Shown in pieces: positions 9,438-28,664 of a DNA stretch of 56,001 bases. The notes beneath the pieces were generated by a model. It did no database searches. It saw only the letters and a list, made by a program, of their open reading frames with translations, and had not been told where the DNA came from. Source of the DNA: a virus. The translations under genes were made by a program, and so were the position numbers. Position 1 is the first letter of the stretch. Every line of letters begins with the position of its first letter. The stretch lies in the IMG/VR virus record IMGVR_UViG_3300032282_003292, positions 1-56,001 of that record; one strand, written 5' to 3'.

Positions 9438-12400
9438 TCAAAAAGCTTTTATAACATATTTTGCCCTATAATATTTAGTTATCAACGGAACAGTTATATT
9501 TGGTCTAAATTTTGCTGTAGGAACTATTGCTTTTTTAGTTGATAAAGTAAACGTTCCAGGATCTGAAATTATTGCAAGTTCAGAAGAAGTAAAAGAAACC
9601 TCGGCAGTTTCTTGCAAAGAAGAAATTGAACCATATTTAGTACCAGGACCATTAACATTTCCATAACCATACGTATAACCACCAAATGGAAGTGGAGAAA
9701 TATAGTGACTATGAGTTAATGTTCCCCCAGGGCTATATCCTATAACATTACCAGTGCCATTATCACCCAAATCTATAGCACCCAATCTTATAGATCCTCC
9801 TGTTGTTACTTTACCTGGAGCATCGCTATTATTTGAATTATTGAGAGGAATATTATTTGATACAGCGGAAGCCCAATAATTATTATATGTAACAGAAGCA
9901 TTCCAAGTATTACTACCTATACCTTGAGCTGGTGGACTTGGTGCCCCAGGATAATAAGCACCTACACCAGATTGACCAAGTGTTCTAGCACCTTGAAGAG
10001 GAAGAACACCAGGGCTTCCCCAAGCTATCAATCCATTTTTAGTTTCTGATAATGAACTAGAAACCAATTCATGAAAATGTTCTGGTGTTTTAACAATAGT
10101 TTCTTTAAGAGGTCCAACTGGAGCAGTACAATCACCAATGATAGTGAATAACGTATCTCCTGTAACATTTTGATAACCATTGGTTTTTATAGTTCCTATT
10201 CTAAAAAATTCACTAGTTATTTCATCTTCAAATAATTGTTCTCTTGGATAAGGTCCTCTGGGATCTATTTTGTCAATATACCAAAATCCCCCTTGAGATC
10301 CAACTGTTGTAGATGAACCAGCATCAGTTCCATCTGGTCCTATAAATGTAGGAACAGACACAGAAGAAGAAACATTTCCATCTACTCTTCCAGTTCCATA
10401 TAATTTTCTATTTCTATAATCAGGAAGATTGAAATCTCCACTATAAACATATGGAGATTCATCAGATTTATTACCTACTCCGCCATAAGTATTACCAATA
10501 ACATTGAATAGATCTGGATAATCAGAAACATTTAAAGTTCTGCCATCACATTCAATAAATCCTGGATATCTAGATTCTGGAGAACCATCTAAAACACCAA
10601 AAGATCCAGAAGAATCTCTAAAAACAGAAATAACAGTTCCTATACTATAACCATCTGCTTTTCCTAATGAACTATACCACGTAGAAGCTTGATCCGTTAC
10701 TGGAGGTTCTGGTAATGTAGTAACTGACCATTGATCTGTTACACCACCAATATTGACATTTATATTAGCAGAATTACTTCCATAACCGCCTGTACGCAAT
10801 CTCAACATTAAAGGATTATTATTAGATATAGATGATGGAGCAGGGGGTGCTGGATGTGTTAGGCCAGTTATATCATACCAATCAGTACCATTGTTAATGC
10901 TGAATTGTGCTTGTGATCCAGTAAAATCTGATGGTTTTGTAATTGAAAGCGAAGATGGAGATGTTATCCCACGAATAATAATTTGATTACTATAAACTAA
11001 AGTAGTTGCTTTTTGATTTGGTCTATCAACAAAAACAAAAGGATCTGGTATGGTATCTCCAGCTAAACTTGTAGTAATTTTCCATTCATCTGCCAAATAT
11101 CCATATTGATTTGTTCCAACAACAATTGTTGATCTAACAGTAGTGCTGGGTTGATTTGGTGCAGTAATTTTTAATTGCAAACTTTGTTGATTTTCTATAG
11201 TAACCGTTTCTGCTGCGGGATTTTTCCAATCACCACCATTAACAGAAACATAAACTGGAATATTTTCATCATTTGAAGTTGTTATATTAGCAGAATAATT
11301 TATGCCCGTAATTTGAACTATATTACTTTCTACGGTTGTGCCACCTACAACATCGGTAAGATTTGTGAAATTATAATATTCTGGTGCAGTATCAATAGTA
11401 GAAGTTGTTGTAACTAACCAGTCTACAACTGGAGAATCTCCAATTGTTATTAAAACAGTTATTTTATCTCCAGGAGTAGAAGATGATTTTACTTTAATTT
11501 GTATATAATCTCCGTTATATATTATTCCCGTGTTTCCTTCTTTTTTTATATTAGCGATGTACAAAGATAAATCACCACTAGCAATTGGAACGCCACTAAT
11601 AGTAGATGCACTAATTGTTACTCTAGCACTTCCATTAACAAGTCCTGTTATTTGAACAGAATCACTACTAATAACTGTATTAGGTAATGCATTCGTAACA
11701 TCAACAAAATCCCAAGGATTTACAATATCTGGTTGTCTATCTTTTGTTCTTATTATATATCTAGATTCTACTTGACTACCTACATCACCAACTCTTAAAT
11801 ATGTTGTTCTTTCTGTATTATATGTATTTGGAGATAATACATATAATTTTATAACAGCTCCATTGGTAACCTGTGCAGTTTTTCCAACCACAACAAGATT
11901 TCCATTTACAATTAATCTAGCATCATCACCAACTACAGTAGCTGAAACAGCTTTATTGATACCAAGAATAGTAACAGAATTTCTAGTAGTATAATAAGTA
12001 TTTAATTCGGCATCATACTCATTTAAAAATGTATCAATTTCATTTGGAGCCCCCTCTGTTCTTGTATATCTAACAGTTACCCTACCATTACCAGCCCCAG
12101 TTATAGGATCTCCAGGACCTCCATATTGAGACAAGCCTATTACTACATTTTTAGTGCCATCCATTCCTAAATTTTCATTACGCCAAGTCAATCCAGTTGT
12201 TCCATTAGGAACATTAGTAGAAGCCAAAGCTTTAGTTGTTCCCCTCCAGGCAATACCAGGATAAAGTTCAGGAGTTTCGTACCAATCTGCAGTACTGGTA
12301 TAATAACCATTTAATCCTGATTTACCCCCTTGACCACCATAAGCCGAAGTTTGGCCATAATAATATAAACGGCCACCACCATTACGAATATATGCAGAAG

Positions 12401-13160
12401 CATACTCATACGACGTAAATTCACCATATATAGAATCTGCAGCTCCTCCAGTTCCACCTCCCCCATAACCTGATCCACCTAAGTAAGCTGCTTGTTGAGC
12501 CCTATTTACCATATCGCCACCATTCGTCGTATTATAATAATAATAATAAGCTCTTCCATGTATAACATTTGTCATGCAATCTAGGCCACGAGCACCAGGG
12601 GCAGAATTATTTAAAACATTTGCTCCAGGACCACCACCACCGCCGCCAGCCCACATCAAAGGAGTAAAATTATTTGAAGTTACTGGAATAGTAGGATTTG
12701 GATCTCTTGGCCACGCATCAGCGTAAGAAAGATGTTCTTTAGTATAAATTGAATTGCTGGCCACAATCCCAACTGTTGTTAACGCTCCTCCTCCACCTCC
12801 TTGCACAGAACCATTATATGAATTGCCCTCACCTCCAGATCCTCCAGTAGCTGTCGTATAAAAACTTTCATTTCCCCATCCACTAATTACACCACCATTA
12901 AATACATTTCCAGAAATAGTTCCATTACCTCCACCATTACCAACGCCAATATGAAGTTCGGATCCACCAGGAACTCCAAACATTGCACCAATATAACCAC
13001 CAGATCCGCCATATCCTCCAGGTAAAAGTCCTACTGGAGTAGTTCCACCCCCACCTCCACCATGAGCATCTATTTGAATCAAACTAATATCCCCAGAAAT
13101 ACCAGGAAGTTTCAAATGATTCAATCCAGTATAATATATTGCCTTTTCTGTAATTGCCAT
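9438..13160 (-). CDS. Modular tail fibre with Gly-rich N-terminus and tail-collar domain, 1240 aa
   Basis: A large virion protein. Residues about 1-370 are a Gly-rich domain (repeated GGGG clusters, GGYGGSGGYIGAMFGVPGG) like those at the tips or stems of many phage fibres. Residues about 370-830 hold tandem beta-sandwich-like modules of roughly 100 residues, each with an aromatic F/Y strand, an I.GI strand and an exit strand such as DQWSVTT or DEWKITT. Residues about 850-940 show a phage tail-collar pattern (YPGFIECDGRTLNVSDYPDL, then GNTYGG and FNLPDYRNR). The C-terminus is beta-rich. It is probably a receptor-binding or fibre component. It shares collar motifs with the two genes upstream, suggesting fibre gene duplication. 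Confidence 0.75.
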   Translation of the reverse strand: MAITEKAIYYTGLNHLKLPGISGDISLIQIDAHGGGGGGTTPVGLLPGGYGGSGGYIGAMFGVPGGSELHIGVGNGGGNGTISGNVFNGGVISGWGNESFYTTATGGSGGEGNSYNGSVQGGGGGALTTVGIVASNSIYTKEHLSYADAWPRDPNPTIPVTSNNFTPLMWAGGGGGGPGANVLNNSAPGARGLDCMTNVIHGRAYYYYYNTTNGGDMVNRAQQAAYLGGSGYGGGGTGGAADSIYGEFTSYEYASAYIRNGGGRLYYYGQTSAYGGQGGKSGLNGYYTSTADWYETPELYPGIAWRGTTKALASTNVPNGTTGLTWRNENLGMDGTKNVVIGLSQYGGPGDPITGAGNGRVTVRYTRTEGAPNEIDTFLNEYDAELNTYYTTRNSVTILGINKAVSATVVGDDARLIVNGNLVVVGKTAQVTNGAVIKLYVLSPNTYNTERTTYLRVGDVGSQVESRYIIRTKDRQPDIVNPWDFVDVTNALPNTVISSDSVQITGLVNGSARVTISASTISGVPIASGDLSLYIANIKKEGNTGIIYNGDYIQIKVKSSSTPGDKITVLITIGDSPVVDWLVTTTSTIDTAPEYYNFTNLTDVVGGTTVESNIVQITGINYSANITTSNDENIPVYVSVNGGDWKNPAAETVTIENQQSLQLKITAPNQPSTTVRSTIVVGTNQYGYLADEWKITTSLAGDTIPDPFVFVDRPNQKATTLVYSNQIIIRGITSPSSLSITKPSDFTGSQAQFSINNGTDWYDITGLTHPAPPAPSSISNNNPLMLRLRTGGYGSNSANINVNIGGVTDQWSVTTLPEPPVTDQASTWYSSLGKADGYSIGTVISVFRDSSGSFGVLDGSPESRYPGFIECDGRTLNVSDYPDLFNVIGNTYGGVGNKSDESPYVYSGDFNLPDYRNRKLYGTGRVDGNVSSSVSVPTFIGPDGTDAGSSTTVGSQGGFWYIDKIDPRGPYPREQLFEDEITSEFFRIGTIKTNGYQNVTGDTLFTIIGDCTAPVGPLKETIVKTPEHFHELVSSSLSETKNGLIAWGSPGVLPLQGARTLGQSGVGAYYPGAPSPPAQGIGSNTWNASVTYNNYWASAVSNNIPLNNSNNSDAPGKVTTGGSIRLGAIDLGDNGTGNVIGYSPGGTLTHSHYISPLPFGGYTYGYGNVNGPGTKYGSISSLQETAEVSFTSSELAIISDPGTFTLSTKKAIVPTAKFRPNITVPLITKYYRAKYVIKAF

Positions 13161-13179: not shown

Positions 13180-14058
13180 TTAATATTTTATTATATATTC
13201 TACTAATATAAATGGAGCTTGAGTATCATCAAAAGTAGTATGAGTAACAGGAGTTGCAATATTTACTGTAGTAACTAAATTATCTGCTCCTACATTAAAA
13301 GTATTATAAGACCACGAAAAATTATGAATATGTTCAGCAGCGGGAGGAATTGTTACATTATGTGAATGAGGAGAATCTGCCATCCCAAAAGTTGTAGTAA
13401 TTTCATAAGTATTGCCACCAATACATCTGCAATTATCTCCACTATGACTTTTTGATGGGGAAACTGGACCAGTTCCACCAGTAAGATAATAATTTCCTGT
13501 ATAATTTAATACGGATTGATTTCCTCCATGCCCGTGAGCTTGAAAATTTATGTCTGTTAAAGATACAGCATCAGTAGATTTATTAACAGTTTTGTATAAC
13601 GGAGATCCAGCAAGTTTTACTGGAGCTGAAGGACCTTGAACAATAAATCTTCCATTATAAGTTATTGTTTCGGTTTGTGTTACATTAGAAGATACATTGA
13701 ATTCAGATCCTACATGATATGTTTTTTCATCTTGTAAAAACATATCATTATATATTCCAGTTCCAGCCCCAGCAACAATATATTTTGACCCCAAATCTGG
13801 TAGCTGAATTTCATCATCAGCTAAAGTAACATTATCTTTTACGTATCTACATGCTTTTCCAATTCCAATTACATTCGCCAAATCTGGATATTCCGAAGCA
13901 GACAAAATACTACCATCACAACGCAAAAATCCAGCTGGCAATAATGATTTGAAAGCAGGATTATTAGGAGAATTTTGTTGTGGTAGTTGACTAGTAAATA
14001 TTTGAATAGTTCCAACCATTCCACCATATTTACTTTTTTCTTTTGTGTAATTTGCCAT
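13180..14058 (-). CDS. Tail-collar-domain fibre protein, 292 aa
   Basis: A short fibre protein. The N-terminal tail-collar motif is visible as GTIQIF...LPAGFLRCDGSILSASEYPDLANVIG at residues about 17-67, followed by LPDLGSKYIVAGAG. A His-rich central region (GHGGNQSV, SHNVTIPP, EHIHNF) resembles metal-binding fibre tips like T4 gp12/gp37. The C-terminus closes with a strand APFILVEYIIKY similar to the other fibre proteins here. It lies 2 nt from the 632-aa fibre gene, in one operon. Confidence 0.7.
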   Translation of the reverse strand: MANYTKEKSKYGGMVGTIQIFTSQLPQQNSPNNPAFKSLLPAGFLRCDGSILSASEYPDLANVIGIGKACRYVKDNVTLADDEIQLPDLGSKYIVAGAGTGIYNDMFLQDEKTYHVGSEFNVSSNVTQTETITYNGRFIVQGPSAPVKLAGSPLYKTVNKSTDAVSLTDINFQAHGHGGNQSVLNYTGNYYLTGGTGPVSPSKSHSGDNCRCIGGNTYEITTTFGMADSPHSHNVTIPPAAEHIHNFSWSYNTFNVGADNLVTTVNIATPVTHTTFDDTQAPFILVEYIIKY

Positions 14059-14060
14059 AT

Positions 14061-15959
14061 TTAATAAGCTCTAATTAAATACATCACTAATAAATTAGGA
14101 CTAGTAACGGCCACATTTATATTTAGCGCACCTGGAAGATTATTTGGCTCTATATCTGCAATAACATTATTTGTAACAATTGAAGAAGGCATTCTTAAAG
14201 TTCCATTTGTATAGTCAATATCAAATTGACCATGATCATGACCTTCGATTACTGTAACTGATTGACCTAGATTTGAATTAGTAGTAAAATTTATTGCAGA
14301 ATTATTAAAAGAAACTTTGTATGGTCTATGCTCATCTCCACTTGTAGGCAATCCTGGATCATAATTGGTATTTTCTAAGTATACTCTACCATATAATCCA
14401 AATGGAACATCATCTTTTACTTCCAATTCTTTTTGTTGAAAAAGAGGATTTGATGGAGTTCCATATGGTCTAGAAAATTGAGTATCATTACCAAACCAAT
14501 AAGCTATGGGGTGTGAAGTAGTTCCATATGGTTTTAATACACTAGCTTCTGTAGATATATTAGCTAAAATAACAGGACTGATTCCAGTTCCTACAGCAGT
14601 ACTATTGGCACTAGGAATACTACCATAGTTTGCAGATGTATCTGGCCCATCAAAAACAATTCCAAGTAATTTATCTGCCCATTCATCCCATCTTGGTGAT
14701 GAAAATTTGTATTCTATTTCTCTTGAACAAGACACTCCTCGTCCTGGTTTTGGCTCTTCTACCCCAGAAATAGATACAACACTTCCTGCGTGTGTATGAG
14801 GTTGTAAATGTTTTCTTCCTAATTTTCTTGGAGCGGTGTATAGAGATTTAGTTCCAACTCCCCCATCAATTCTAGCACCAGTTATTGTTCCAGAAAATTC
14901 ACTATCAATTGCATATTCAAATAATATATCCGTAGGAGCTTCCCAATTAGTTGTAATACTATTATCAATATCAGAAGCTGCTACTAACGATCCAATATTT
15001 CCAATAACAATAGTCTTATTAGTTTGAAATCTAGGATTTGATAAATTTTCGATAGGTACATCATTAAGACTTGGAGCTGGATATTTAAATTGCAACGATT
15101 GAGTTAAAACAGAACTAGTTGCTCCTGCTAATATAGCACTAATAGTTAATCTATATGTATGAGATTCTCCGATTGGTGGTTGGGGACCAGAATATCCCAC
15201 TGCACTTACCCCAGAAGTGCCTATTGATCCTAAATAATTTGGTCTGACTGAAGTTCCGACAGGAAGAGTGGTTGCATCGGCAGAAATAAAATTAGTATTA
15301 GCTGGAATATTTGTCAAATACCACAAAGTTAAATTAGTTCCATTAATAGTTTCAGAAAGATCTTCTAGTAAAAGTGTAAAACTAGAAATATTAACTCCAG
15401 GTGGAAATTGATTGGTATTAAATGACCAAGAAAGTGAAGGATTTTTATTTTGCGCTCCAGTTCTTTGAGCCCTAGTCGAAGAAGTGCCGACCATAGAAAG
15501 TGGAGCAACATCATTATTTGTTAATGGAATACCACTACTAGGCGTCACCACAAATGTGCTTCCATTAACAGTTATAACAGTGGTAGTTCCGCCAGTAGAA
15601 CCAACTCCAGTTCCAATATATTTAGCTACTATGTCAGCTGCTTCTGCTGTATCAATATTTTGTCTTTTTGTTCCCAAGGCTCCAGCACCAAAATGTGCCA
15701 CATCCATATCAACTAATGGTCTGGAAATAATTTTTGGCAAAGTAATATTTCCAGAATAATTTGGAAAATTTCCAGAAAATGTAGAACCACCATAAGTATT
15801 TCCAATAATTTGCGCTAAAAGTGGATATTTAGATGCTGATATAGAAGTACCATCACAAATTAACCAACCTTTTGGCAAATCTGTAGTTCCACCCACCCAA
15901 GGTATGATAGTGCCGATAGCGGCAGCTTTCATAGTTTTTAATTTTCCGTAATTTGCCAT
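14061..15959 (-). CDS. Tail-collar fibre protein with inserted PEBP-like domain, 632 aa
   Basis: The N-terminus carries a tail-collar domain (GTIIPWVGG, then LPKGWLICDGTSISASKYPL and IGNTYGG, residues about 14-65). Residues about 176-286 read like a phosphatidylethanolamine-binding protein (PEBP/YbhB) fold: LSWSFNTNQFPPGVNISSF, LTLWYLTNIPANT, then SAVGYSGPQPPIGESHTYRL. The same module recurs in the giant protein next door. A His/Gly motif (LGRKHLQPHTHAGSVV) and a C-terminal HDHGQF segment may bind metal. It is a probable virion fibre; PEBP folds elsewhere bind lipids or small ligands, so a host-surface ligand is conceivable but unproven. Confidence 0.7.
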   Translation of the reverse strand: MANYGKLKTMKAAAIGTIIPWVGGTTDLPKGWLICDGTSISASKYPLLAQIIGNTYGGSTFSGNFPNYSGNITLPKIISRPLVDMDVAHFGAGALGTKRQNIDTAEAADIVAKYIGTGVGSTGGTTTVITVNGSTFVVTPSSGIPLTNNDVAPLSMVGTSSTRAQRTGAQNKNPSLSWSFNTNQFPPGVNISSFTLLLEDLSETINGTNLTLWYLTNIPANTNFISADATTLPVGTSVRPNYLGSIGTSGVSAVGYSGPQPPIGESHTYRLTISAILAGATSSVLTQSLQFKYPAPSLNDVPIENLSNPRFQTNKTIVIGNIGSLVAASDIDNSITTNWEAPTDILFEYAIDSEFSGTITGARIDGGVGTKSLYTAPRKLGRKHLQPHTHAGSVVSISGVEEPKPGRGVSCSREIEYKFSSPRWDEWADKLLGIVFDGPDTSANYGSIPSANSTAVGTGISPVILANISTEASVLKPYGTTSHPIAYWFGNDTQFSRPYGTPSNPLFQQKELEVKDDVPFGLYGRVYLENTNYDPGLPTSGDEHRPYKVSFNNSAINFTTNSNLGQSVTVIEGHDHGQFDIDYTNGTLRMPSSIVTNNVIADIEPNNLPGALNINVAVTSPNLLVMYLIRAY

Positions 15960-15963
15960 ATTT

Positions 15964-18900
15964 TTAGATCTCCATTAACCACCAACCAATTTTTTCACTT
16001 GGAACTATAGTTTGACCTTCTGCGTTTGCACCAGCATATATTAATCCTAAAGCTGCATTTGGAGTATTTACAATCAATTCTCCTCCATTATGTAGTGCAA
16101 GATTAATTGAATTTGGAGCAGATGTATTACTAGAATCTGCTTGTATTGCAACTCCAGTGCTCGCTCTTATAATTAATTTAACATCATATTTTAAATTACC
16201 ACTCAAATCTACAAATCTTATCATATCACCATTAATTGGATTTGTTGGCAATTTAACATATAATGTGCTAATTGGATTTACAAAATAATTTATATTAGAT
16301 TTTAAAGTTCCGCCATCACCAGATAAAGTATTAATATAATCCCATCTTCTACCGCCAGAAGGAGTATTATATCCCGCAATTCCAGCAAAATCTATAGATC
16401 CAGAAGGATTTATACTATAATGATTATAATATTGTAATCTAGTAGTGCCATTATCAAACAAATCATCACTAGTTCTAGTGGGAGGACTAGTTCCCAAATT
16501 ACCACCAATAATTACTTTATAAGTATTTTCATCGGTACGTATATAAGAACCAGTTGCTGCGGCAGCACCAGCTACCCAAGGATCTCCTCTATTTACTCTA
16601 AGATTTCCGCCATTAACTAGTAATGAAGAATTAAATCTATTTGTTCCTTCTGTTGCCGTGCTTAAGAAATTACCATATATAGTTAGATTTCCAGTTCCAT
16701 TTTGTAAATACAATCTATTAGAAGATCCAGAAGAATCTTTTATGGTCAAATCACCACCATTCATGGTAACATGACCAAACTCAGAATTTACTGTCAATTT
16801 ATTATAACTAGAATTTTTACCTACATTTAAATTACCATAGATATTTGTTTTTCCTGTAGCACTATCCACAGAGAATGTTGTGGTTGATGTATCAGTATTA
16901 TAAGAATTTGTGATAATAGTACTATTTGCAACAAAATTAGATCCGCCAGCAGGAACTTCTGTTCCAGAGCCATATTTAAAATCTAATATTTTGGTTAAAA
17001 TATTATTTGTTTGAATATTTCCAGATCCTTGTAAGACTGCACTAATAGATAATCTATAATTATGAATAAATGTAGATGGTGGTTGTGGTGAAGTATATCC
17101 TATGGAATTAACTCCAGAAGTTCCAGGTAATCCAATGTAATTTCTTTGTATCACAGAACCAAAAGGAACTGTAGTAGAATTTGCATTAAATGAAGTTACT
17201 GTATTTGGAATTTCTGTGATCATCCACAATATATTTGGTTTCCCAGAAGTTCCAGAAACACTTAGATTTTCTAAACAAATTGTATAACTTGCTATAGTAT
17301 ATCCAGTAGGAAGTGTTCCAAAAGACCAAGATAATTGCGGGTTAGTCGTAAGACCAGTGGTATATGTAGTTCCATTAGTTATTTGAGCAGATGTAAATGT
17401 TCCTCCAGTTACTGTATTTGTAACTGCTTGAGTTACTGTAATTTGCCCATTATTAATTTTTAAATATTTGGAATTTTCAACTTCAGAACCATGTAATATT
17501 ACAGAATTATAAGAATCTATTTTTCCTTTTACTAAAGTATTGCCAGTTGTAGATTCCACATTAAATAATGTTACGGCAGAATTGCCTCCACCATCATTTA
17601 TATTTAATGATTGTATTTCACTCAATGCTTGATTTATAGATTCAATTTTAACTATTTCTGTACCGTCAATTCTTATGAAATCTCCAGAATTTAAAGATCC
17701 CCCAAATTCTGCTGTTTTAAGAACAGATACTGCTCCAGCAGTATTTGATCCCATAGGAGAAGTAATATAACTCACATTAGCAGATTTATCTAATCTCTTA
17801 ATAGGTGTTTTATCTGGATGAGTTCTTACAGTAGTTCCTTCAGCTCCACGTTCAACTTTAATTCTAATACCTTCTGCATCATTTATATTAAATAAATTAG
17901 TTAATTCAATTACACGCACGATTTCTGATTGGGAAGCATCAGTAGAACTCCTATCAATTAAAATATAAGATCCTAGAGTAATATCACTTGCAAATGGTAC
18001 TATATCCAAAGGAAGATATATGTTAGTACTTTGCCAATTTCCAGTACCTTGTGTATCTACAGCATTTCCAATAGAAACAGTTCTATAAACATCAATATTT
18101 AAGTTATCTGCATCACCAGCCAAATGAGAAGAAACTGGAGTATTAAATTGACCTCTTTTTACATTAAGTGCTCCAGTTCCTAAGCCACCATTCAATATAA
18201 TATTTCCTTCTATTTTTGCAGAACCTTTTACACCCAAACTATTGTTAATTGAAGTTTGACCAGAATCAGCTCCTAAACTTAATGTAGAAGCACCTCTAGC
18301 TATTGTAACATAAGATGGAGAAGAAGAATTAGACAAAAATTCAAAATATCTATTAAATGATGTTATTTTTCCAGTAGAACCAGAAACAAATCCAGATCCA
18401 ACTTCAATATCACCATCTACACGTAAAAGTCTATTTTTAATATTAAATAAACTGTTAGAATTTGAAAAAGCACCACCAACAATAACTGATGACAAATAAG
18501 AATTATTGTCATTTGGTACAGTACCTATCCTAACAGTAGAATTTTGAGAATTTTCATGTATTTTTAAAATACTATAAGTAGCATTAGATCCACTAACAAT
18601 ACTTTGTGAAAGTGCGCTATTTCCAATATTAATTAATTGGGCTTGAGTCGTAGTGTTTGCTAATTGCAAAGTACTAGCATTTTTTGCAAAAGTAATACTT
18701 GTTGGAGTATCAAATGCTACAATAGATGCACTCGTTGTATCTATTTTACTCGAAACTGTCAAATCTCCAATTACTTTCAATGGTCCACCAAAAAAGCTAT
18801 TACCACGAACAAAAAGATTTGATTTTCCAGAAAATGCCGCGTCTAATGCCAAATCTTCAACGCTAGCATTAATAGATACACGTCCTAAAGTACCAGTATA

Positions 18901-21900
18901 GGGATCTACAGGTAAAGTACTACTTACTCTAAATATTGAGGTATCATTAAGAGAAGCACTATTTCCACCAACAACTAAAGCATTATCTAAGTTGGTAGTT
19001 GTTTTTTGTTGCACTCCACCAGAAACAATAATGTTAGTGGTTTTTCCACTAATAATTGTATTACCAACTACATCTAAATTAGCTCTAGGAGCAGTTGTAT
19101 CTTCAATAAAGGCTGTTTTATATCCATCATCAGTAGCTCTAGCAAGAGTATTAATACCTAATTTATAATCTCCAAATATTTCTGTGCTGGTTCTTATTGA
19201 TTCTGATCCAATTATTCCAACTTCTTTCCAACTAGATCTGGATACTTCCATTTTATATGCAGATAACCAATTATATAATTGACCACTAGCAGGAACTGTT
19301 GGTATTGAAATTTTAAAGAATCCAAAATTTGAATTATAATCAGTTTGAAGAACAGTCCATGTTCCATTTAATGGAGCATGAGGAGTAAATCCAGAAATTC
19401 TAACTTGAGATCCAGGAGATATAAATTTATCAACATTTTTAATCCCAGTTACAAATGTTATTGTAACATAAATTCCATCACTGCTAACATTTTGAATGTC
19501 GCCATCAGCAATTTCTGTATAATAATTCGCATATATCCATCCTAAAGGACCAGAAAGACTAACTTCTTTACCTTTTAATAAAACATCTCCTGGTATTGGT
19601 TTGTAAAAATTACTGTATTGAATTATTTGATTTGCACTAAACTTACCAGTTTGATCTGGAGAAATATTAGTTGGTCCTTGAGATGATATAAAATGTGTTC
19701 TGAATGTATAAGGTTGTCCATTAACTTGAGATTGTTGCCTTGGGGAAATTGAGAAAATTGCAGCATTAACTCTATTTTTACTTAAAGTAATATCACCATC
19801 TTGATTATTTGGGTAATTAGTTCTTGATAATGATTGATCGTCATCAGAATTAACTGCACTATAAATCCTTAAAGGAACTCCTTCATTTGGTTCTACATTT
19901 ATTTCTACTGGATTATTGAATGTTGCATTTCCCTCTACAGTAATTCTATCATTAAAAGTTACTGGATCTGGGAAAGTAGTTACAATTCCACCAAGAGAAC
20001 CTTTATCTTCATCTATTGATTGCACCACACCAGCTTGTTCTAGGTATGTTTCTTCGCCAGTAATAGCGTTGATTTTACGGTTACCAATGTATAGGTCACC
20101 GTTAGAGTTTAGACCAGTATAGAATACTACCCCGCCATCTTCTTTTTTAGATTGTGCATAGAAATTTTGAGCATCCGCTAAAACAACATCTTGGCGTAAT
20201 GGGAAGCCAGTTGAATAGTTACCAGGACCAAAACCAAGATATTCGAATGTGTGATTACCAGAACGAGCAATAGATGGTCTGCGAAGTTCTACATATAATC
20301 TCTTTTCTGTTGGATAATCTGAATTTCCAGAAATAGGAATTCTTCTATTTTCAGCCCCCGAAGTAGCATTCCCAACTTGAGCTTCGATGATTGTAGATCC
20401 AGATGATGGATTTATAGTAGCAGTTACTAAATCTTCAGATTTAGTAAAAGTATTTCTATTTAATGGTGGTTGTGTTATTAATTCATATACAACTTCTTTA
20501 GTTTCACTTCTTTTAGAATCATCTGTATATACTAAACCATGTATATAATTATCAGCTACAGAAACAGTATTAGGAACATCATTATAACTAGATTTTATTT
20601 GTTTGAACCATACAGGATCATTTTTATAGTCTATTGGATATAATTGAGAAATTGGTTGTGAGAATTTATAATTTCTAAAATTAGTTCCAACTCCAGTTCC
20701 AGTTGGATATGGAGAAATATTTCCTTTAACACAAGTTAAATAATAAATTCCATCTTGCTGACCAGATATTCTTCTTTGAATTTGTTCAATATCAAAAATA
20801 TAAAAAGTATCTTCAATATCTCCAAGATCAGTAACACTTGTTATTTTATAAGAATTAGCTCCTATTGTTACAGTATCTCCTGGAACAACAGTATATACAT
20901 TAGCTCCATCAATTCTATAGAGAAAATCTTTTCTATTAGATTTATCTCTACCTAAAGAATCTCCAATACTATTTGGTTTTGTTAATAATGTTGCAGTTAC
21001 ACTTCCCTGGGTAAAAGTTGTGGTAATTGAAGAATCGTATTTAATTCCATCTCTAGAAACATTTTTAAGTAGTAAATAATAATTGGATCCATCAACAAAA
21101 TATCCTTGGACATTACCAGTTCCATTTGTCGTACCAGACCAAGTAATTGCATTAGATGAATCTGATAGATCTTTATTTGAAACAAATGTTCCATCTCCTC
21201 CAGAAGGAGCACTTATTTTTACGGCTACAAAATTTTCTCCTCTAATTCCATCCAAATTAATGTTGTGATCAAATACAGTTAATTCTAATCTGTTGGCTTG
21301 AGAAACAGAAACTATTCTTGCTGATTGAATGGAAAATGAAATTCCACTAGCAGTTTGAGAACTATTAATGATTGCAGGATTTAAATAAGGATCATAATTT
21401 GAAGTTACTCCATATGTTTGATTCAAAACAGTAGAAGTATATCCCAACCTTTCTTCTGGTTGTGCTGGATTCTCTATTTGAGCAACTGCAGGAGCATTTC
21501 CGATTGGTGTTAGTACAAATCTTTGAGGAACTAATCTTCTTTTTTCATCTGTTCTTAATTTAATAGTAAATCCATTCAGTGGATCACGAACTGTTTCCAA
21601 ATACTTAGGTATTACATAACGCAATCTATAGACCCTATCCCCATCAGATCTATCATCATTAACTCTATTAAACCAAGTATCTAAAGTTCTAATTTTATTA
21701 GCACTTGGTCCATAAGCATTGACATCATGAAATCTTGTTAAAATACTATTGGATCTTGGGCTACCGCCAGAAGATTCATCAGTAACTTGTAAATACCACA
21801 AGCCAGTGGTGTTTGTATTATCTCTATACGATGGATCAAATCTTAATGGACTTAATCTTTTATTTGCATAAACGTAAAAATTACCACCGCCATTAAAAGT

Positions 21901-24900
21901 TAATGCATTTCCAGAAATTGCATCAGCATAAGTATTATGCACTGTGAATTGATTAGGAGCTACATATTTAACATAATAAAATCTATTTGTTTGTATAACA
22001 CCAGTTCCAGTTATTGATGGTAAAGTAGATCCTTGTATGTCAGAAGCTACACTGAAAAATACTCTTTGAGGAGTAATAGAAGCATTAGGAACATCAAAAA
22101 TATGATTAGTATCAGTAGTAATTATTTGCGAAGCTCCGCCAACAAAATTACACGTATACTTATGTAAATCATAAACTTCATCTAAAATATATTGATGAAC
22201 TTCTATTTCCACATTAGTGTCAATTGCATCAGTTTCTGAAGAATATATGTATATTCCAGCAGTTGCATTTTCTTTAGTTGCTGCCAAAAGTAATTTTGTT
22301 TGTGCTGTCCCATTGAAAGACGAAGTTCCAGAAAAATCATATGGTTGAGTAGTTCTTCCAGGAGCAATAACATAATATGTTTGATTTGGTTCAAATCCTT
22401 TTGGCAATCTAATTAATTTTTTGTTTGGATTTGTGCCAGATTTTGCTCTAGGTACAAGTCTTACTGGTGTTCCAGTTTCAAATTGATGTGGATCTGTATT
22501 TCCATTTCCCGTATTAATTGTAAATAAAGTAGCTCTCTTATATTGAGAATTTAATCCACCTGGATCTAATGTAGATAAAGAAGCTTTATATACAGTAAAA
22601 CCTGTTGGTGTTAGAGTAGAATAACATGTACCTGTATCTAATTTAACATATATTTTTTCTTGATTTCTAGCACCCAATCTATAACCAGTTACACTTGCAG
22701 CTGGTTTAATGTTAGGATCATTTGCAGTATCTACACCAAGATAAAGTTTTGTGTGATTACTTTCACCTCTAGATGCAGGAATATTTAAAGTATAATATTG
22801 TATTTTAGTTTGATTTGTTTCCTTGACGACTTTAGGTGGAATAATATCCGTTATGTATCCACCCTTATCTTGATTAAATGCAAACCCCTTAAATCCTTTT
22901 GCGTGTAAAGAAGTATTACCAAAGTTAGAGTTTGAGTTGGTGATAGACATATCACCTCCACTTTCCATCAAGAAGTGATCATGAAAACCAACAGCAAAAA
23001 CAGAAACGCACTGAATAAATGAGTCATCAGAAGCGCGAATGTGGAAGTTTCTCCAATCATCTTTCCAATAAGAATCGCCTTTGGTGTGATAAGGTACTGA
23101 AGCAAATGCACTAGTTAAAGGTGCTTGATTCCAAGTATTAGTAAATTCATCGTAGCGAATAAAAGCACGATCATCTTTTTGAAGTGAAACACCAGTATAC
23201 TGAGCAACAACCATTGATTTGAATCCAGTTGCTTTGGATCCATCCGCCCACATACCACAAATACCCCACGTAGAACGAATAGAGCAGTTGAATACATATG
23301 GAGAGGCAGATTCTACAGAGTCAATTTCTGCTTGAGATACTGCATTAGAATTCAATCCATTTGTAATATAATATGTTGTATTATTAACAAGAGCATTATT
23401 GCCCATTTCACTTATAGTAGCATCTACTTCATATTCAAATATTCTTGGATTTTGTGCATCCAAAGCAGTTACTTTAAATGTTCCATTTAAAGTATCACTC
23501 AATCCAGTATTTAAAATAGCAATATATTGATCAATAAAGTAACCATGATCAATTTTTGTGGTTACAATTGCTCTAGTTTTACCAGATACCTCAATTAATT
23601 TTATACTTTCAATTCTTCTAGTATCGGAAAGTGGACCCACAATTCTATTTTCTTGTACGAGAGATTCAAATTCCCCATCATCAATTTCTGGCTGGAATCT
23701 AGAAAAAGCTCTACCAACTTTTTCATAATAATTATCAAGCTCTTCTGTATCCGCATATTCCATAATACAAATTTTATGGTGCGAATATTCAGGAATTGCT
23801 TTTTGAATACTATTATTATATTGATAATATACTTTACCTACTCTAGCTACTTCATCATATAAAGGAGAATTTGCGGACAAATCTCCATCTTTAATAGTAA
23901 ATTGCCATAAATAACAACCACCAGTTAAATTGAATACAGAAGTTCTTGGTTGAGTTGAATCTGCTGGATCTGGTACATATAATGGACGCACAACAGTTCT
24001 GCGAAGATCATATCCAATTAAAGAACATCCTCTAGGTACAATAGCGCCACCAGTGGAAGCATTAAATTTATATAAAACGTTATTGGGATTCGAAAGATCA
24101 AGGATTGAATTATCAGTCCATTCTTCCAATGCTTTGTTATAATTAAATATAGGAACATCACCAGTAACAGTAATTGCATTGAAATATGAAACTACATCGT
24201 TTGCCGTAGTTTTTGTCAATGCAGTTGTTACAATAGCAATTAATGTGGTGATTGTATTTTGTACATCAACACAAGATAAAGAATTTCCTGATGGAGATAC
24301 TGGTTGAATTGGTCCAGTGCCACCATATTCCGAAGGACCTGCTTGTAAAGTCAAATCTTTAGAATATAATTGATTAGTAACCGCTTTTTTCATCATATCT
24401 CTAGCGGCATTAAATGCAAATGTCGCTTGAGTTACTTCACCAATCAACCCATTGGTCAATGGTAAATTATTTGAACCAAAATAAGCTCTGGCAGCTTGAA
24501 CTGAGTTGCTATTTCCACCAGATTTTAGATCAGAAATTACAGCATCAACAATATAACCAATATCTCTCTTACAAATAGATTCTCCATCTCCTAAAGGAGG
24601 AGCAGACTCTTCTACAATTCCAGAAAGATTGCCAGTAGTAAGAGTAGTTGTTACAATAGTGGTTAAATTGTCAATAAAAGTTCTTACATTAGCACAAGAA
24701 TTAACACTAATATTAGATCCAGTAGCACTATCAGCGGTTATTGATGTATCTTTATAAGTAAGCTGATTAGTTACAGCTTTTCTCATTTCATTTCTAGCTG
24801 TTTCAAAAGCAGCATTTGATTGACTTACTTCACCTTCTAATGAAGCATCTATCCAATCATCGCCAGTAGAATTGAAATAATTTCTTAAAAATTTAACTGT

Positions 24901-25518
24901 ATATGTGTTTCCACCGCCAAGAAGTACATCAAGAGAAACTGCATCTATAAAATATCCAATATCTCTTTTGCATTTAGTTTCTAAATTTGCTGGTGCTGGA
25001 GATGGAGGATTAGCAGATACGGTAGCATATGCAGTGTTTATAATATCTGCTCTATTTTTTTGAATTAAACGATATGAATCAAAATATCTAGATTTGTCAG
25101 TAGTTACTCCATCACCAGGGGGTATCCAATTATTACCCCACGTAGATTCGTTATATTCAATGGCAATTTGACCATAGGCACGATCAACAATTTCTTGATA
25201 ATTAGCTTCAATTAAATTAGACGCATCATAATAACGCTGAATTGGATTAACAATATTTACAGATCCTGGTCTATTATCAATATAATGATTACCAGGCATC
25301 AACATGATGCTGAATTGATCAAATCTATCGTTGCCCTTTCCTGGCAAATATGAATATCTTGCTACTTCAATAAAAGCTCTTTGAATAGTTTTAAAAGGTC
25401 TTAAGGGAGAATTTCCCCTATTATCAAGTTCATCTGTAGCGTTAAAATCATCTGGTGATACATATAGATATTTTCCAGTTTTACTTGAATAGAGATTATC
25501 AAGTCTTGTAAGAGACAT
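15964..25518 (-). CDS. Giant virion structural / tail fibre protein, 3184 aa
   Basis: One uninterrupted frame. The N-terminus (MSLTRLDNLYSSKTGKYLYV, then PFKTIQRAFIEVARYSYLPG and IMLMPGNHYIDN) looks like a right-handed beta-helix virion protein known from T4-like cyanophages. Residues about 178-290 and 314-440 are a duplicated insert, each starting CKRDIGY and containing KAVTNQL. Residues about 650-850 are rich in aromatic and Asp residues. A long beta-rich stalk follows with repeated GN.TF/V.G modules. Residues about 2728-2829 are a PEBP-like domain (LSWSFGTLPTGYTIASY, YTSPQPPSTFIHNYRLSI). A T4-type late promoter lies just upstream. It probably forms a long fibre or baseplate-attached spike. 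Confidence 0.75.
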   Translation of the reverse strand: MSLTRLDNLYSSKTGKYLYVSPDDFNATDELDNRGNSPLRPFKTIQRAFIEVARYSYLPGKGNDRFDQFSIMLMPGNHYIDNRPGSVNIVNPIQRYYDASNLIEANYQEIVDRAYGQIAIEYNESTWGNNWIPPGDGVTTDKSRYFDSYRLIQKNRADIINTAYATVSANPPSPAPANLETKCKRDIGYFIDAVSLDVLLGGGNTYTVKFLRNYFNSTGDDWIDASLEGEVSQSNAAFETARNEMRKAVTNQLTYKDTSITADSATGSNISVNSCANVRTFIDNLTTIVTTTLTTGNLSGIVEESAPPLGDGESICKRDIGYIVDAVISDLKSGGNSNSVQAARAYFGSNNLPLTNGLIGEVTQATFAFNAARDMMKKAVTNQLYSKDLTLQAGPSEYGGTGPIQPVSPSGNSLSCVDVQNTITTLIAIVTTALTKTTANDVVSYFNAITVTGDVPIFNYNKALEEWTDNSILDLSNPNNVLYKFNASTGGAIVPRGCSLIGYDLRRTVVRPLYVPDPADSTQPRTSVFNLTGGCYLWQFTIKDGDLSANSPLYDEVARVGKVYYQYNNSIQKAIPEYSHHKICIMEYADTEELDNYYEKVGRAFSRFQPEIDDGEFESLVQENRIVGPLSDTRRIESIKLIEVSGKTRAIVTTKIDHGYFIDQYIAILNTGLSDTLNGTFKVTALDAQNPRIFEYEVDATISEMGNNALVNNTTYYITNGLNSNAVSQAEIDSVESASPYVFNCSIRSTWGICGMWADGSKATGFKSMVVAQYTGVSLQKDDRAFIRYDEFTNTWNQAPLTSAFASVPYHTKGDSYWKDDWRNFHIRASDDSFIQCVSVFAVGFHDHFLMESGGDMSITNSNSNFGNTSLHAKGFKGFAFNQDKGGYITDIIPPKVVKETNQTKIQYYTLNIPASRGESNHTKLYLGVDTANDPNIKPAASVTGYRLGARNQEKIYVKLDTGTCYSTLTPTGFTVYKASLSTLDPGGLNSQYKRATLFTINTGNGNTDPHQFETGTPVRLVPRAKSGTNPNKKLIRLPKGFEPNQTYYVIAPGRTTQPYDFSGTSSFNGTAQTKLLLAATKENATAGIYIYSSETDAIDTNVEIEVHQYILDEVYDLHKYTCNFVGGASQIITTDTNHIFDVPNASITPQRVFFSVASDIQGSTLPSITGTGVIQTNRFYYVKYVAPNQFTVHNTYADAISGNALTFNGGGNFYVYANKRLSPLRFDPSYRDNTNTTGLWYLQVTDESSGGSPRSNSILTRFHDVNAYGPSANKIRTLDTWFNRVNDDRSDGDRVYRLRYVIPKYLETVRDPLNGFTIKLRTDEKRRLVPQRFVLTPIGNAPAVAQIENPAQPEERLGYTSTVLNQTYGVTSNYDPYLNPAIINSSQTASGISFSIQSARIVSVSQANRLELTVFDHNINLDGIRGENFVAVKISAPSGGDGTFVSNKDLSDSSNAITWSGTTNGTGNVQGYFVDGSNYYLLLKNVSRDGIKYDSSITTTFTQGSVTATLLTKPNSIGDSLGRDKSNRKDFLYRIDGANVYTVVPGDTVTIGANSYKITSVTDLGDIEDTFYIFDIEQIQRRISGQQDGIYYLTCVKGNISPYPTGTGVGTNFRNYKFSQPISQLYPIDYKNDPVWFKQIKSSYNDVPNTVSVADNYIHGLVYTDDSKRSETKEVVYELITQPPLNRNTFTKSEDLVTATINPSSGSTIIEAQVGNATSGAENRRIPISGNSDYPTEKRLYVELRRPSIARSGNHTFEYLGFGPGNYSTGFPLRQDVVLADAQNFYAQSKKEDGGVVFYTGLNSNGDLYIGNRKINAITGEETYLEQAGVVQSIDEDKGSLGGIVTTFPDPVTFNDRITVEGNATFNNPVEINVEPNEGVPLRIYSAVNSDDDQSLSRTNYPNNQDGDITLSKNRVNAAIFSISPRQQSQVNGQPYTFRTHFISSQGPTNISPDQTGKFSANQIIQYSNFYKPIPGDVLLKGKEVSLSGPLGWIYANYYTEIADGDIQNVSSDGIYVTITFVTGIKNVDKFISPGSQVRISGFTPHAPLNGTWTVLQTDYNSNFGFFKISIPTVPASGQLYNWLSAYKMEVSRSSWKEVGIIGSESIRTSTEIFGDYKLGINTLARATDDGYKTAFIEDTTAPRANLDVVGNTIISGKTTNIIVSGGVQQKTTTNLDNALVVGGNSASLNDTSIFRVSSTLPVDPYTGTLGRVSINASVEDLALDAAFSGKSNLFVRGNSFFGGPLKVIGDLTVSSKIDTTSASIVAFDTPTSITFAKNASTLQLANTTTQAQLINIGNSALSQSIVSGSNATYSILKIHENSQNSTVRIGTVPNDNNSYLSSVIVGGAFSNSNSLFNIKNRLLRVDGDIEVGSGFVSGSTGKITSFNRYFEFLSNSSSPSYVTIARGASTLSLGADSGQTSINNSLGVKGSAKIEGNIILNGGLGTGALNVKRGQFNTPVSSHLAGDADNLNIDVYRTVSIGNAVDTQGTGNWQSTNIYLPLDIVPFASDITLGSYILIDRSSTDASQSEIVRVIELTNLFNINDAEGIRIKVERGAEGTTVRTHPDKTPIKRLDKSANVSYITSPMGSNTAGAVSVLKTAEFGGSLNSGDFIRIDGTEIVKIESINQALSEIQSLNINDGGGNSAVTLFNVESTTGNTLVKGKIDSYNSVILHGSEVENSKYLKINNGQITVTQAVTNTVTGGTFTSAQITNGTTYTTGLTTNPQLSWSFGTLPTGYTIASYTICLENLSVSGTSGKPNILWMITEIPNTVTSFNANSTTVPFGSVIQRNYIGLPGTSGVNSIGYTSPQPPSTFIHNYRLSISAVLQGSGNIQTNNILTKILDFKYGSGTEVPAGGSNFVANSTIITNSYNTDTSTTTFSVDSATGKTNIYGNLNVGKNSSYNKLTVNSEFGHVTMNGGDLTIKDSSGSSNRLYLQNGTGNLTIYGNFLSTATEGTNRFNSSLLVNGGNLRVNRGDPWVAGAAAATGSYIRTDENTYKVIIGGNLGTSPPTRTSDDLFDNGTTRLQYYNHYSINPSGSIDFAGIAGYNTPSGGRRWDYINTLSGDGGTLKSNINYFVNPISTLYVKLPTNPINGDMIRFVDLSGNLKYDVKLIIRASTGVAIQADSSNTSAPNSINLALHNGGELIVNTPNAALGLIYAGANAEGQTIVPSEKIGWWLMEI

Positions 25519-25592: not shown

Positions 25593-25631
25593 AGGCACAC
25601 GGAAGGGGTTGATTCTTGGCAGTATCGCCAA

Positions 25632-25713
25632 TGGGCAGGGAGGGATTTGAACCCCCGTAGGCAGAGCCAAACGGTTTACAGCCGTTCTCCATTAACCACT
25701 CGGACACCTACCC
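25632..25713 (-). tRNA. tRNA-Tyr (GTA)
   Basis: Acceptor GGGTAGG pairs with CCTGCCC (one T-G wobble), discriminator A. The anticodon arm is AACGG-CTGTAAA-CCGTT with anticodon GTA. The long variable arm is typical of bacterial tRNA-Tyr, and the T-loop is TTCAAAT. CCA is not encoded. Total 82 nt. Confidence 0.9.
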
Positions 25714-25723
25714 AAGTTAACTC

Positions 25724-26506
25724 TTAAGAGAAAATAATTTTTTGAAGTGAAGTAACAATATAAACAATACCAATAAAACAAACCGAAAAACCAAAAATAA
25801 TTTTCAGCAATCTGTCAGGAAGATATGGCGATAATAATGCACCAATTTGAGCGCCAATCAATGTACCACTTACACTAAAAATTAAAATATCAAAATTGAT
25901 ATTACCTAATTTTAAATTTATCAAAGTAATTAACCAATCACCAAGAGCTTCAATTACAATAGCAGAAGCATTTGCTCGTTTAGTTTCAAGATTACCTTGT
26001 TGCTCAAACAATGGTTGATGTATTTCTGCAATACCAGTGCCAGTGCAAGCAGATCCTATTCCCGCAAAAAATTGTTTAATTCGACTTGGAATTGTCGAAA
26101 GTGCTTTAAGATCTGCCAAATAAGAATTGCCAAAATGATTAAAATATGCAAGATAAAGTTGATATGATGCAATTGAAAAAATTACAAGACCAACCGTAAG
26201 ACGCAAATATTGTTTAGGCAAATGCAAAAATATAAAAATACCAGAAATAACGCCAGCTAGAACAAAAGGTATTACTTTTTTAACTGCAGAAATATCAATT
26301 TTATTCATAAAATAATAACGTACCGCACCACTGGTCATCCCAATAGTTTCAGTTGCAATTCCTGTTGCAATTGATTGTGCAATAGGAACTTTTAAAACAA
26401 AATTAAAAAATGGTTGAAATAAAACACCACCAGAAAATCCAGAAGCATTTGCAAGAATAGCAACAATAATTGCTACGGGAAATACATACCAATATTCAAA
26501 TGTCAT
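25724..26506 (-). CDS. TauE/SafE-family membrane permease, 260 aa
   Basis: A polytopic membrane protein with about seven or eight hydrophobic helices. Two Gly-rich repeat halves have the TauE/SafE look: N-terminal ANASGFSGGVLFQPFFNFVL and IATGIATETIGMTSGAVRY, and C-terminal GTGIAEIHQPLFEQQGNLE with SGTLIGAQIGALLSPYL. The family contains putative exporters of sulfite, sulfoacetate or other organosulfonates. The gene sits between tRNA-Asn and tRNA-Tyr, so it is a probable auxiliary metabolic cargo gene. The transported substrate and whether it serves sulfur or another anion cannot be read from sequence. Confidence 0.75.
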   Translation of the reverse strand: MTFEYWYVFPVAIIVAILANASGFSGGVLFQPFFNFVLKVPIAQSIATGIATETIGMTSGAVRYYFMNKIDISAVKKVIPFVLAGVISGIFIFLHLPKQYLRLTVGLVIFSIASYQLYLAYFNHFGNSYLADLKALSTIPSRIKQFFAGIGSACTGTGIAEIHQPLFEQQGNLETKRANASAIVIEALGDWLITLINLKLGNINFDILIFSVSGTLIGAQIGALLSPYLPDRLLKIIFGFSVCFIGIVYIVTSLQKIIFS

Positions 26507-26553
26507 ATTTTTTTATATATCAATAAATGAGAATAATTTATCTTTTACTCAAA

Positions 26554-26625
26554 CTGCCCCGACTGGATTCGAACCAGTAACCTTGGAGTTAACAGCTCCC
26601 TGCACTGCCGTTGTGCTACAGGGCA
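26554..26625 (-). tRNA. tRNA-Asn (GTT)
   Basis: Acceptor TGCCCTG pairs with CGGGGCA (one T-G wobble), discriminator G as usual for tRNA-Asn. The D-arm is GCACAACGGCAGTGC. The anticodon loop is CTGTTAA with anticodon GTT; the outermost anticodon-stem pair is mismatched (G-A). T-arm ACTGG-TTCGAAT-CCAGT. Total 72 nt, CCA not encoded. Confidence 0.9.
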
Positions 26626-26631
26626 ATAAAA

Positions 26632-26793
26632 TCAGTTGTTTAACATGTATTCAACTGTATTTGCTACATCATTCATAGCAGTTCTTAAATCTGGTTGTTG
26701 ACCAGATTCCTGTTTTATGATTGGTCTAGAATCATCAGTCAATGTCCAACGCCATTGTCCCAAAATTTTACAATACCACAATTTAATGTTCAT
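26632..26793 (-). CDS. Small conserved-type protein, 53 aa
   Basis: A short frame starting MNIKLWYCKILGQWRWTLTD and ending EYMLNN. It is beta-rich at the N-terminus with a Trp cluster, then helical. Its ATG directly follows the TAA of the 47-aa gene with no gap. It ends 7 nt before tRNA-Asn. Function unknown. Confidence 0.65.
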   Translation of the reverse strand: MNIKLWYCKILGQWRWTLTDDSRPIIKQESGQQPDLRTAMNDVANTVEYMLNN

Positions 26794-26937
26794 TTAAAAT
26801 TTATCTTTTGATTTTATTTTTACCCAATTTAATAAATTATTGTATTCAATTGTATCGCTTTGTTCTCGTTTTGCTTGTATCAAAGCCTCTAATGCTTCAA
26901 TAACCATTTCGTGATCTTTTTTTGAAAGTAAGCTCAT
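26794..26937 (-). CDS. Small hypothetical protein, 47 aa
   Basis: Starts MSLLSKKDHEMVIEALEALI and ends KIKSKDKF: amphipathic helix plus basic tail. A GAGGGC-type ribosome binding site precedes the ATG, and the stop abuts the ATG of the 53-aa gene. It lies between tRNA-Leu and tRNA-Asn. Function unknown. Confidence 0.6.
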   Translation of the reverse strand: MSLLSKKDHEMVIEALEALIQAKREQSDTIEYNNLLNWVKIKSKDKF

Positions 26938-27012
26938 TTATTTGCCCTCGACTTTTTTGGCGATTTTTTGGCGGGGATTTTTTTCCCGATTTCATGGATT
27001 TGGTTTTTGAAT

Positions 27013-27032
27013 TTCGGATTTTATAATCCGAA
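27013..27032 (-). repeat. Hairpin directly 3' of tRNA-Leu
   Basis: TTCGGATT pairs perfectly with AATCCGAA around a 4-nt loop, one base from the tRNA-Leu 3' end. There is no T run after it. A processing stop or RNA stabiliser is likely. The 27-bp A/T- and G-run-rich stretch beyond it shows nothing further that I can name. Confidence 0.5.
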
Positions 27033-27033
27033 G

Positions 27034-27113
27034 TGCCCAAGAGAGGACTCGAACCCCCACGCCGAAGCACATGATCCTAAGTCATGCGTGTATACCAATT
27101 TCACCACTTGGGC
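27034..27113 (-). tRNA. tRNA-Leu (TAG)
   Basis: Acceptor GCCCAAG pairs with CTTGGGC, discriminator A. D-loop region GGTGAAATTGGTATACAC is typical of class II tRNA-Leu. The anticodon arm is CATGA-CTTAGGA-TCATG with anticodon TAG. Variable arm TGCTTCGGCG, T-loop TTCGAGT. Total 80 nt. It would read CUA and possibly other CUN codons. Confidence 0.88.
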
Positions 27114-27255
27114 AGTGACCCCTCTGTTTGAGCATCATTCGGCGTCCCGAGATAGGCTTGAGGGGTGTTCTTAATAAGGCAGGTGCGGTATCCGTCGTGC
27201 GTTTCAGAAGTGTCACCGACTCCCATGCTCCTTTTTCTTTCCTTACCTTATTGTT
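27114..27255. other. Non-coding GC-rich spacer with a 7-bp stem
   Basis: No credible gene. ACCCCTC (27118-27124) pairs with GAGGGGT (27160-27166), enclosing a smaller TCGG/CCGA stem. The base composition is much richer in G+C than the surrounding genome. There is no T-loop consensus, so it does not read as an intact tRNA. It may be part of an RNA structure or a decayed tRNA. Confidence 0.4.
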
Positions 27256-27327
27256 ACCTCTGTCTAGGAATCGAACCTAGTTTCCAAGTGCATTGTCTGC
27301 CTGTCCTTACCAATAGACTACCAGAGG
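27256..27327 (-). tRNA. tRNA-like element, anticodon arm does not fold (possible decayed tRNA)
   Basis: The ends look like a tRNA: acceptor CCTCTGG against ACAGAGG (one mismatch), T8-A9, D-arm GTCTATTGGTAAGGAC, and a perfect T-arm CTAGG-TTCGATT-CCTAG. The total length is right. However, the 27-43 region (GGCAG ACAATGC ACTTG) forms no anticodon stem and lacks T33, so no anticodon can be assigned. Either the gene is a pseudogene, or the RNA needs editing or has another function. Confidence 0.5.
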
Positions 27328-27499
27328 TTGTGGTAGGAGGGGGGAGCATCACCTTAAGCCCCCCTCTTTACTTCACTTGGACACAGAATACTAAGACCAA
27401 GGAGAGGTTTTGGTTCCTACATTTGGAGGGAAGATTCGGATATTTCCAACCCCCCCCTCCATCAATCTCCTTCTAGGCTATCTGCCTAGCGAGTATTGA
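27328..27499. other. Non-coding GC-rich spacer with three hairpins
   Basis: Three stems are visible: GAGGGGGG/CCCCCCTC (27337-27344 with 27359-27366), TGGAGGG/CCCTCCA (27424-27430 with 27455-27461), and CTAGGC/GCCTAG (27473-27478 with 27484-27489). No ORF on either strand has a plausible start and ribosome binding site. It may be a structured RNA between tRNAs or tRNA remnants. Confidence 0.4.
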
Positions 27500-27572
27500 A
27501 GCCCTCGACAAGACTTGAACTTGCGACATCAGCTTTACAAAAGCTGCGCTCTACCAGCTGAGCTACAAGGGC
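27500..27572 (-). tRNA. tRNA-Thr (TGT)
   Basis: Acceptor GCCCTTG pairs with CGAGGGC (one T-G wobble), discriminator T. D-arm GCTCAGCTGGTAGAGC. Anticodon arm CAGCT-TTTGTAA-AGCTG with anticodon TGT. T-loop TTCAAGT. Total 73 nt. Its first 10 nt overlap the 3' end of the cpeT-like gene. Confidence 0.9.
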
Positions 27573-28087: not shown

Positions 28088-28346
28088 CTTTAGGCAACAA
28101 TTCAGGATTTAGACATTCAACTTCATACATCAAAGGATGCATTTCTTCCATTACTAGATAATTTGATACTCTAAATAACTCTTCGTCATCATAATCTTTG
28201 TGTGATAATGCTTCGGTTTGAACAGATGGATGTTCTTGAATTATTAGTGGTAACTCATCAAAAGTATAGGGAAGATCTTGTATGAAATACATACGCACAA
28301 CCTCACCCATATAAAAACAATATGCCTGAGATAGTGTGTATTTCAT
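28080..28346 (-). CDS. Hypothetical protein upstream of cpeT, 88 aa
   Basis: Eighty-eight residues with a Tyr-rich N-terminus (MKYTLSQAYCFYMGEVVRMY) and an acidic C-terminus. It overlaps the cpeT start by 8 nt, so the two are probably co-translated. No family recognised; it may be a helper of the cpeT product or an unrelated neighbour. Confidence 0.6.
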   Translation of the reverse strand: MKYTLSQAYCFYMGEVVRMYFIQDLPYTFDELPLIIQEHPSVQTEALSHKDYDDEELFRVSNYLVMEEMHPLMYEVECLNPELLPKDD

Positions 28347-28380
28347 TACGTTTTCCCACTACTAGTGTATTTAGTGAGAA

Positions 28381-28453: not shown

Positions 28454-28462
28454 GATAGAACA

Positions 28463-28491: not shown

Positions 28492-28492
28492 G

Positions 28493-28660: not shown

Positions 28661-28664
28661 TTGG

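Follow-up and report, generated by a model that had tools for sequence, protein, structure and literature searches.

The PEBP (phosphatidylethanolamine-binding protein) family is characterized by five near-invariant polar residues, D71, D73, H87, H118 and R119 in the numbering of Arabidopsis FT. Substitutions at these positions are exceedingly rare, and multiple replacements have been named only for the mitoribosomal L35/L38 proteins and plant PYBHB (PMC8793217). The closest described relatives of the domains reported here are the bacterial proteins YbhB and YbcL (PF01161; PDB 1fjj, 1vi3 and 1fux), which are their best matches in both sequence and structure and share the fold and the core motifs W, IP, GP.PP and H.Y. 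However, YbhB and YbcL occur free in the cytosol or periplasm and have an intact D-D-H-H-R set, whereas the domains analyzed in this study are embedded in fibres of 600-3184 aa and have a broken centre. The L35/L38 clade is similar in that a PEBP was recruited into a large assembly and lost near-invariant residues (PMC8793217), but it is eukaryotic, is fused to an N-terminal extension and resides in a ribosome, not in a virus.

Viral PEBPs have been described as well. A review of the family mentions giant-virus members, e.g. of Tupanvirus, and does not contain the word "phage" in its main text (PMC8793217). These giant-virus proteins are not known as fibre domains and are weak structural matches of the domain described here (E ~0.01). 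YbcL- and YbhB-like genes are present in GenBank phage genomes too, but they encode free proteins (in a transduced bio locus or as stand-alone hypothetical proteins) and not fibre domains. With respect to the virion, the most similar cases are the Ig-like and BACON domains, which are promiscuous beta-sandwiches of tail proteins with horizontal spread and suspected surface binding (PMC6949934). They belong to another fold and family, and BACON domains often occur in tandem, whereas the PEBP domain was single in every carrier protein found. PEBP domains as such are already known, and so are promiscuous beta-sandwich domains of phage tails (PMC6949934). A search of the open-access literature yielded neither a description of PEBP domains within phage fibres nor the combination seen here, a PEBP clade with a dismantled active centre on the tails of uncultured phages.

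Fibre cassette and identification of the PEBP domains

The analyzed stretch, here referred to as the window, is the IMG/VR virus record IMGVR_UViG_3300032282_003292 of 56,001 bases, the sole contig of this record. Judged by its genes it is a fragment of a T4-like cyanophage, an uncultured cyanobacterial virus. The late genes on the minus strand resemble those of T4-like cyanophages, and a 24-kb stretch had its best DNA similarity to S-RIM32 and S-PM2. In the order of transcription the fibre cassette consists of the giant fibre, the short tail fibre, a collar protein and a collar fibre (Table 1). This order is conserved at its start in Kyanoviridae cyanophages, and the short tail fibre gene is syntenic with their short tail fibre genes. 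The carrier genes show the features of the tail fibre and collar type, namely PF07484, phrog_4591 and phrog_4527 and the cyanophage gene order. A first-pass annotation of the window had proposed PEBP-like domains within the two neighbouring fibres, and both ORFs are present as described there.

Table 1. Positions of the fibre genes, PEBP domains and insertions within the window
Feature	Position	Strand	Basis
Collar fibre, 1240 aa, phrog_4924/30655, without PEBP	9438..13160	-	PHROG, Pfam
Collar protein, 292 aa, phrog_4714, next cassette gene, without PEBP	13180..14058	-	PHROG, Pfam
Short tail fibre gene, 632 aa, phrog_4591, gp12-like, carrier of copy A	14061..15959	-	ORF, Pfam, PHROG, synteny
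Phage tail collar domain PF07484 of short fibre, residues 16-71	15747..15914	-	Pfam E=4.6e-15
Whole insertion with copy A, residues ~117-329	14973..15611	-	Absent from ten aligned orthologues
Predicted PEBP domain copy A, residues ~138-300	15060..15548	-	PF01161 41.8 bits, A2 profile, AlphaFold, fold YbcL/YbhB
Giant tail fibre gene, 3184 aa, phrog_4527, carrier of copy B near C-terminus	15964..25518	-	ORF, Pfam, PHROG
Whole insertion with copy B, residues ~2692-2874	16897..17445	-	Absent from giant fibre of nine cyanophages, among them Sf-CH1b
Predicted PEBP domain copy B, residues ~2687-2858	16945..17460	-	PF01161 25.2/31.1 bits, A2 profile

The two segments have the motifs LSWSF, LWYLTNIP or LWMITEIP, GTSGV...GY..PQPP and H.YRL.ISA in common and are 43-46% identical (BLASTP: 46% over 125 aa, E=4e-26). 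Both exceeded the gathering score of PF01161 (24 bits), copy A with a match over residues 168-276 (E=1.7e-10) and copy B over residues 2721-2828 (E=2.3e-5; the higher score in Table 1 was obtained in a single-genome search). A third copy was absent from the whole record in the PF01161 search. The location of the module was thereby confirmed; its proposed limits (residues about 176-286 and 2728-2829) had to be revised, since the profile of the relatives covers the wider ranges given in Table 1. All 21 members of the domain alignment matched PF01161 at E<=0.01, including the 19 fibre members each on its own. The match ends at profile position 101-102 of 135 and leaves the last ~34 positions unmatched. 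This holds for both copies, and the model of copy A closes with a beta strand instead.

Structure prediction was carried out for copy A. The AlphaFold model built on the alignment of 21 domains reached a pLDDT of 89.3 and a pTM of 0.87. Free PEBPs make up two of the 21 rows, which may favour a PEBP-like model, and the model obtained without any alignment was poor (pLDDT 44). A Foldseek search of the PDB returned YbcL first (3.2e-8), followed by YbhB (1.7e-7). All 13 PDB matches at E<=1e-3 were members of the PEBP family, the TM values with YbcL/YbhB were 0.65-0.71, and the mitoribosome entry 9hch_6 was among the matches of the fold search. No viral structure was found in BFVD at E<=1e-3. Additionally, a profile of six fibre domains alone retrieved YbcL (2e-5) and HP0218 (2e-4) from the PDB, and neither fibre had a Pfam match to Ig or BACON domains. 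The assignment as PEBP-like domains is thus supported by Pfam, by the fibre-only profile search and by the fold predicted for copy A, which was that of a PEBP and not an unrelated one. By profile similarity and predicted fold we regard both segments as PEBP homologues that lack the canonical active centre.

Insertion into the fibres and spread among tail proteins

The window fibres were aligned with those of nine sequenced cyanophages and of one locus from IMG/VR; for locus L018 only part of the giant fibre was included. The short fibre contains an extra segment of ~213 aa between "YIG" and "DNG/DNS", whereas in ten orthologues YIG is directly joined to the DNG segment. In the giant fibre a segment of ~183 aa is located between "KINNG" and "TDTSTTTF". 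In both cases the flanks align without the segment. Nine sequenced cyanophages have these fibre genes in synteny but without the domain, which is therefore an insertion. Sequence, predicted fold and domain-less orthologues together show that the predicted PEBP domains were inserted as whole folding units into the short and the giant fibre. A different insert of ~100 residues near the site of copy A was present in the short fibre of Synechococcus phage Sf-FR1 (L084:3796-5508); this region therefore tolerates insertions.

Both copies were found at the same places in IMGVR_UViG_3300010354_004719, with domain identities of 79% and 81%. Degenerate DNA patterns on the C-terminal motif, validated on the window before use, revealed fibre-type copies in another 31 virus contigs, in one case only a partial copy. 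A profile-based scan found most of these contigs again and added one new contig. About 30 of the additional contigs have a single copy, located in other kinds of tail protein. Beyond the two orthologue pairs 26 distinct domain sequences were obtained; this number refers to relatives chosen by motif, and more divergent fibre PEBPs may exist. The pattern matches at L040 and L044 were judged by eye not to be PEBPs.

The carriers differed. In collar-type fibres of ~1500-2176 aa the domain, as judged by eye, splits the collar region into two halves, and in other marine phages it was present in proteins matching the PHROGs of the 1240-aa collar fibre. In L018 a domain-less phrog_4591 gene lies before the carrier gene and a tail assembly chaperone after it. 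At L012 (2-2641, minus strand) the domain is located near the C-terminus of a T7-like tail nozzle protein (PF25675), which adjoins a tail protein and a major head protein. At L029 it is part of a lectin-like fibre with a Laminin_G_3 domain. One collar fibre (L026:975-6521) showed a weak PA14-like match below the cut-off (E=0.0057) ahead of its PEBP domain.

No PEBP domain within a tail protein was found in 50,697 GenBank phage records by four different queries; the PEBPs of these records are free proteins. The only "phage" match to copy A, MT835538.1 (L005, "Bacteriophage sp."), was rejected. It looks like an actinobacterial scaffold, encodes glycosyltransferases, a MerR/HspR-like regulator and a free PEBP, has the appearance of a bacterial chromosome and is probably mislabelled as phage. 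Among 84,980 genomes of bacteria and archaea no recent host donor was seen; the scan yielded only four distant matches, from lactobacilli and an archaeon (26-29% identity, with one short piece of 48%). Taken together, a phage-specific PEBP clade, known here from metagenomic virus contigs only, moves among the tail proteins of unrelated phages.

Active centre, selection and relationship of the two copies

The signature of the family is broken in all 30 fibre domains. D73 and R119 are lost in each of them, H87 in 19 (kept in 11/30) and D71 in four (kept in 26/30). Copy A retains only D71 and H118, and copy B only H118. Three free PEBPs in the same alignment retain all five residues. H118, Y120 and the prolines (P-Q-P-P) were required by the search patterns and are not counted as conservation; positions 71, 73, 87 and 119 lie outside the patterns. 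The broader of the two patterns admits an intact centre, and it returned free PEBPs and no fibre with such a centre. In canonical PEBPs, D73 and R119 form a salt bridge, and their joint loss is therefore coherent. Judged from the alignment, the clade has lost the salt-bridge pair Asp73/Arg119 and often a pocket histidine.

These replacements bear on the question of whether the PEBP pocket still binds a host-envelope molecule that contains phosphate, lipid or sugar. The frequent retention of Asp71 and the partial retention of His87 would be in line with such a binder, and genome context ties bacterial YbhB fusions to carbohydrate modules (PMC8793217). However, Asp73 and Arg119 are gone from every fibre domain, His87 is missing in copy A, and both His87 and Asp71 are missing in copy B. 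We consider this explanation quite improbable for the fibre domains in general. Asp71, His87 and His118 are all kept in 10/30 domains (e.g. L008 and L012), and in these members the pocket could still accommodate a small ligand. Binding of host lipids, for which tests had been suggested in the first-pass annotation, is the least supported part of its idea of a host-surface binding module because the usual pocket is partly dismantled.

In the maximum likelihood tree copy A grouped with its orthologue (support 99/97) and copy B with its own (100/100), and a joint branch of A and B received 85/77. An alternative tree, in which A groups with the nozzle, LamG and L028 copies and B stands apart, was not rejected (AU p=0.257). 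As a family the domain evidently moves between tail proteins; for the pair A and B, the suggested copying between fibres is compatible with the tree, and so are two separate acquisitions. In the pairwise comparison dN was 0.575 between A and B versus ~0.15-0.16 between orthologues. A and B separated far earlier than the window phage and its nearest relative did. If one copy arose from the other, the event would have taken place well before the divergence of the two phages.

The dN/dS ratio was 0.24 for copy A and 0.25 for copy B, similar to the flanking fibre sequence. Both copies are under purifying selection. A functionless passenger that was captured accidentally and is now decaying might be suspected from the degraded pocket residues of the window copies and from the absence of the domain in cultured relatives. 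But two diverged phages have both copies in intact form, at a dN/dS of ~0.25 and free of frameshifts. Purifying selection in both copies already largely refutes this reading, and we regard it as extremely improbable.

Putative role on the virion and further genes of the window

We propose that the PEBP domain is a mobile, non-enzymatic beta-sandwich module displayed on the virion, which would bind some host-envelope molecule in a weak, multivalent manner, as is supposed for Ig-like and BACON domains. We assign this reading a probability of roughly 0.6. A non-enzymatic module is the most likely one because of the loss of Asp73, Arg119 and often the pocket histidine. Host-surface binding, as suggested in the first-pass annotation, fits the positions of the domain.

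The data fit a purely structural role almost as well as they fit adhesion. In this case the domain would be an inert beta-sandwich spacer that lengthens or stiffens the fibre or aids its folding or trimerisation without any ligand. The canonical residues are lost, the insertions lie within the fibre shafts between alignable segments, and the mitoribosomal L35/L38 proteins, in which the same residues are broken, became a structural component (PMC8793217). Purifying selection is as strong as in the remaining fibre sequence and does not discriminate between these roles, since folding alone could explain it. However, the domain is found mainly in proteins thought to touch the host. We prefer adhesion over spacing because the carriers appear to be mostly host-recognition fibres and one domain lies beside a lectin-like domain, and we rate a mere spacer as unlikely.

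More tentatively, and with slightly less than even confidence, a presumed small-molecule protein may have given rise, in a PEBP lineage of uncultured phages, to a mobile receptor-binding tail module that T4-like and T7-like phages share. This lineage would represent a third PEBP clade with a dismantled centre beside L35/L38 and PYBHB. The PEBP fold is added to the short list of folds which phages carry on their tails, here seen in unrelated phages. Furthermore, a fold kept under selection with its residues lost provides a natural experiment on the disputed role of the conserved PEBP residues, and the domain may mark host-recognition regions of uncultured cyanophages.

Several other genes of the window were recorded. 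Nine tRNA genes (25631-28736, minus strand), including two adjacent tRNA-Ile(tat), interrupt the structural region. A TauE/SafE sulfite-exporter membrane protein (25724-26506, minus strand; PF01925, E=4.8e-29) is encoded directly upstream of the giant fibre and had no tblastn match among the 50,697 GenBank phage records. A 1232-aa protein (30059-33757, minus strand) contains a Gp5 OB domain, and its match to Calx-beta lay slightly under the cut-off. A 1540-aa protein (37781-42403, minus strand) carries a protein-kinase match (PF00069, E=3.8e-11, residues 32-170) and an M23 peptidase (residues 1107-1200). Its kinase part matched S-CBWM1 weakly and no other GenBank phage; the protein is perhaps a tail or lysis protein.
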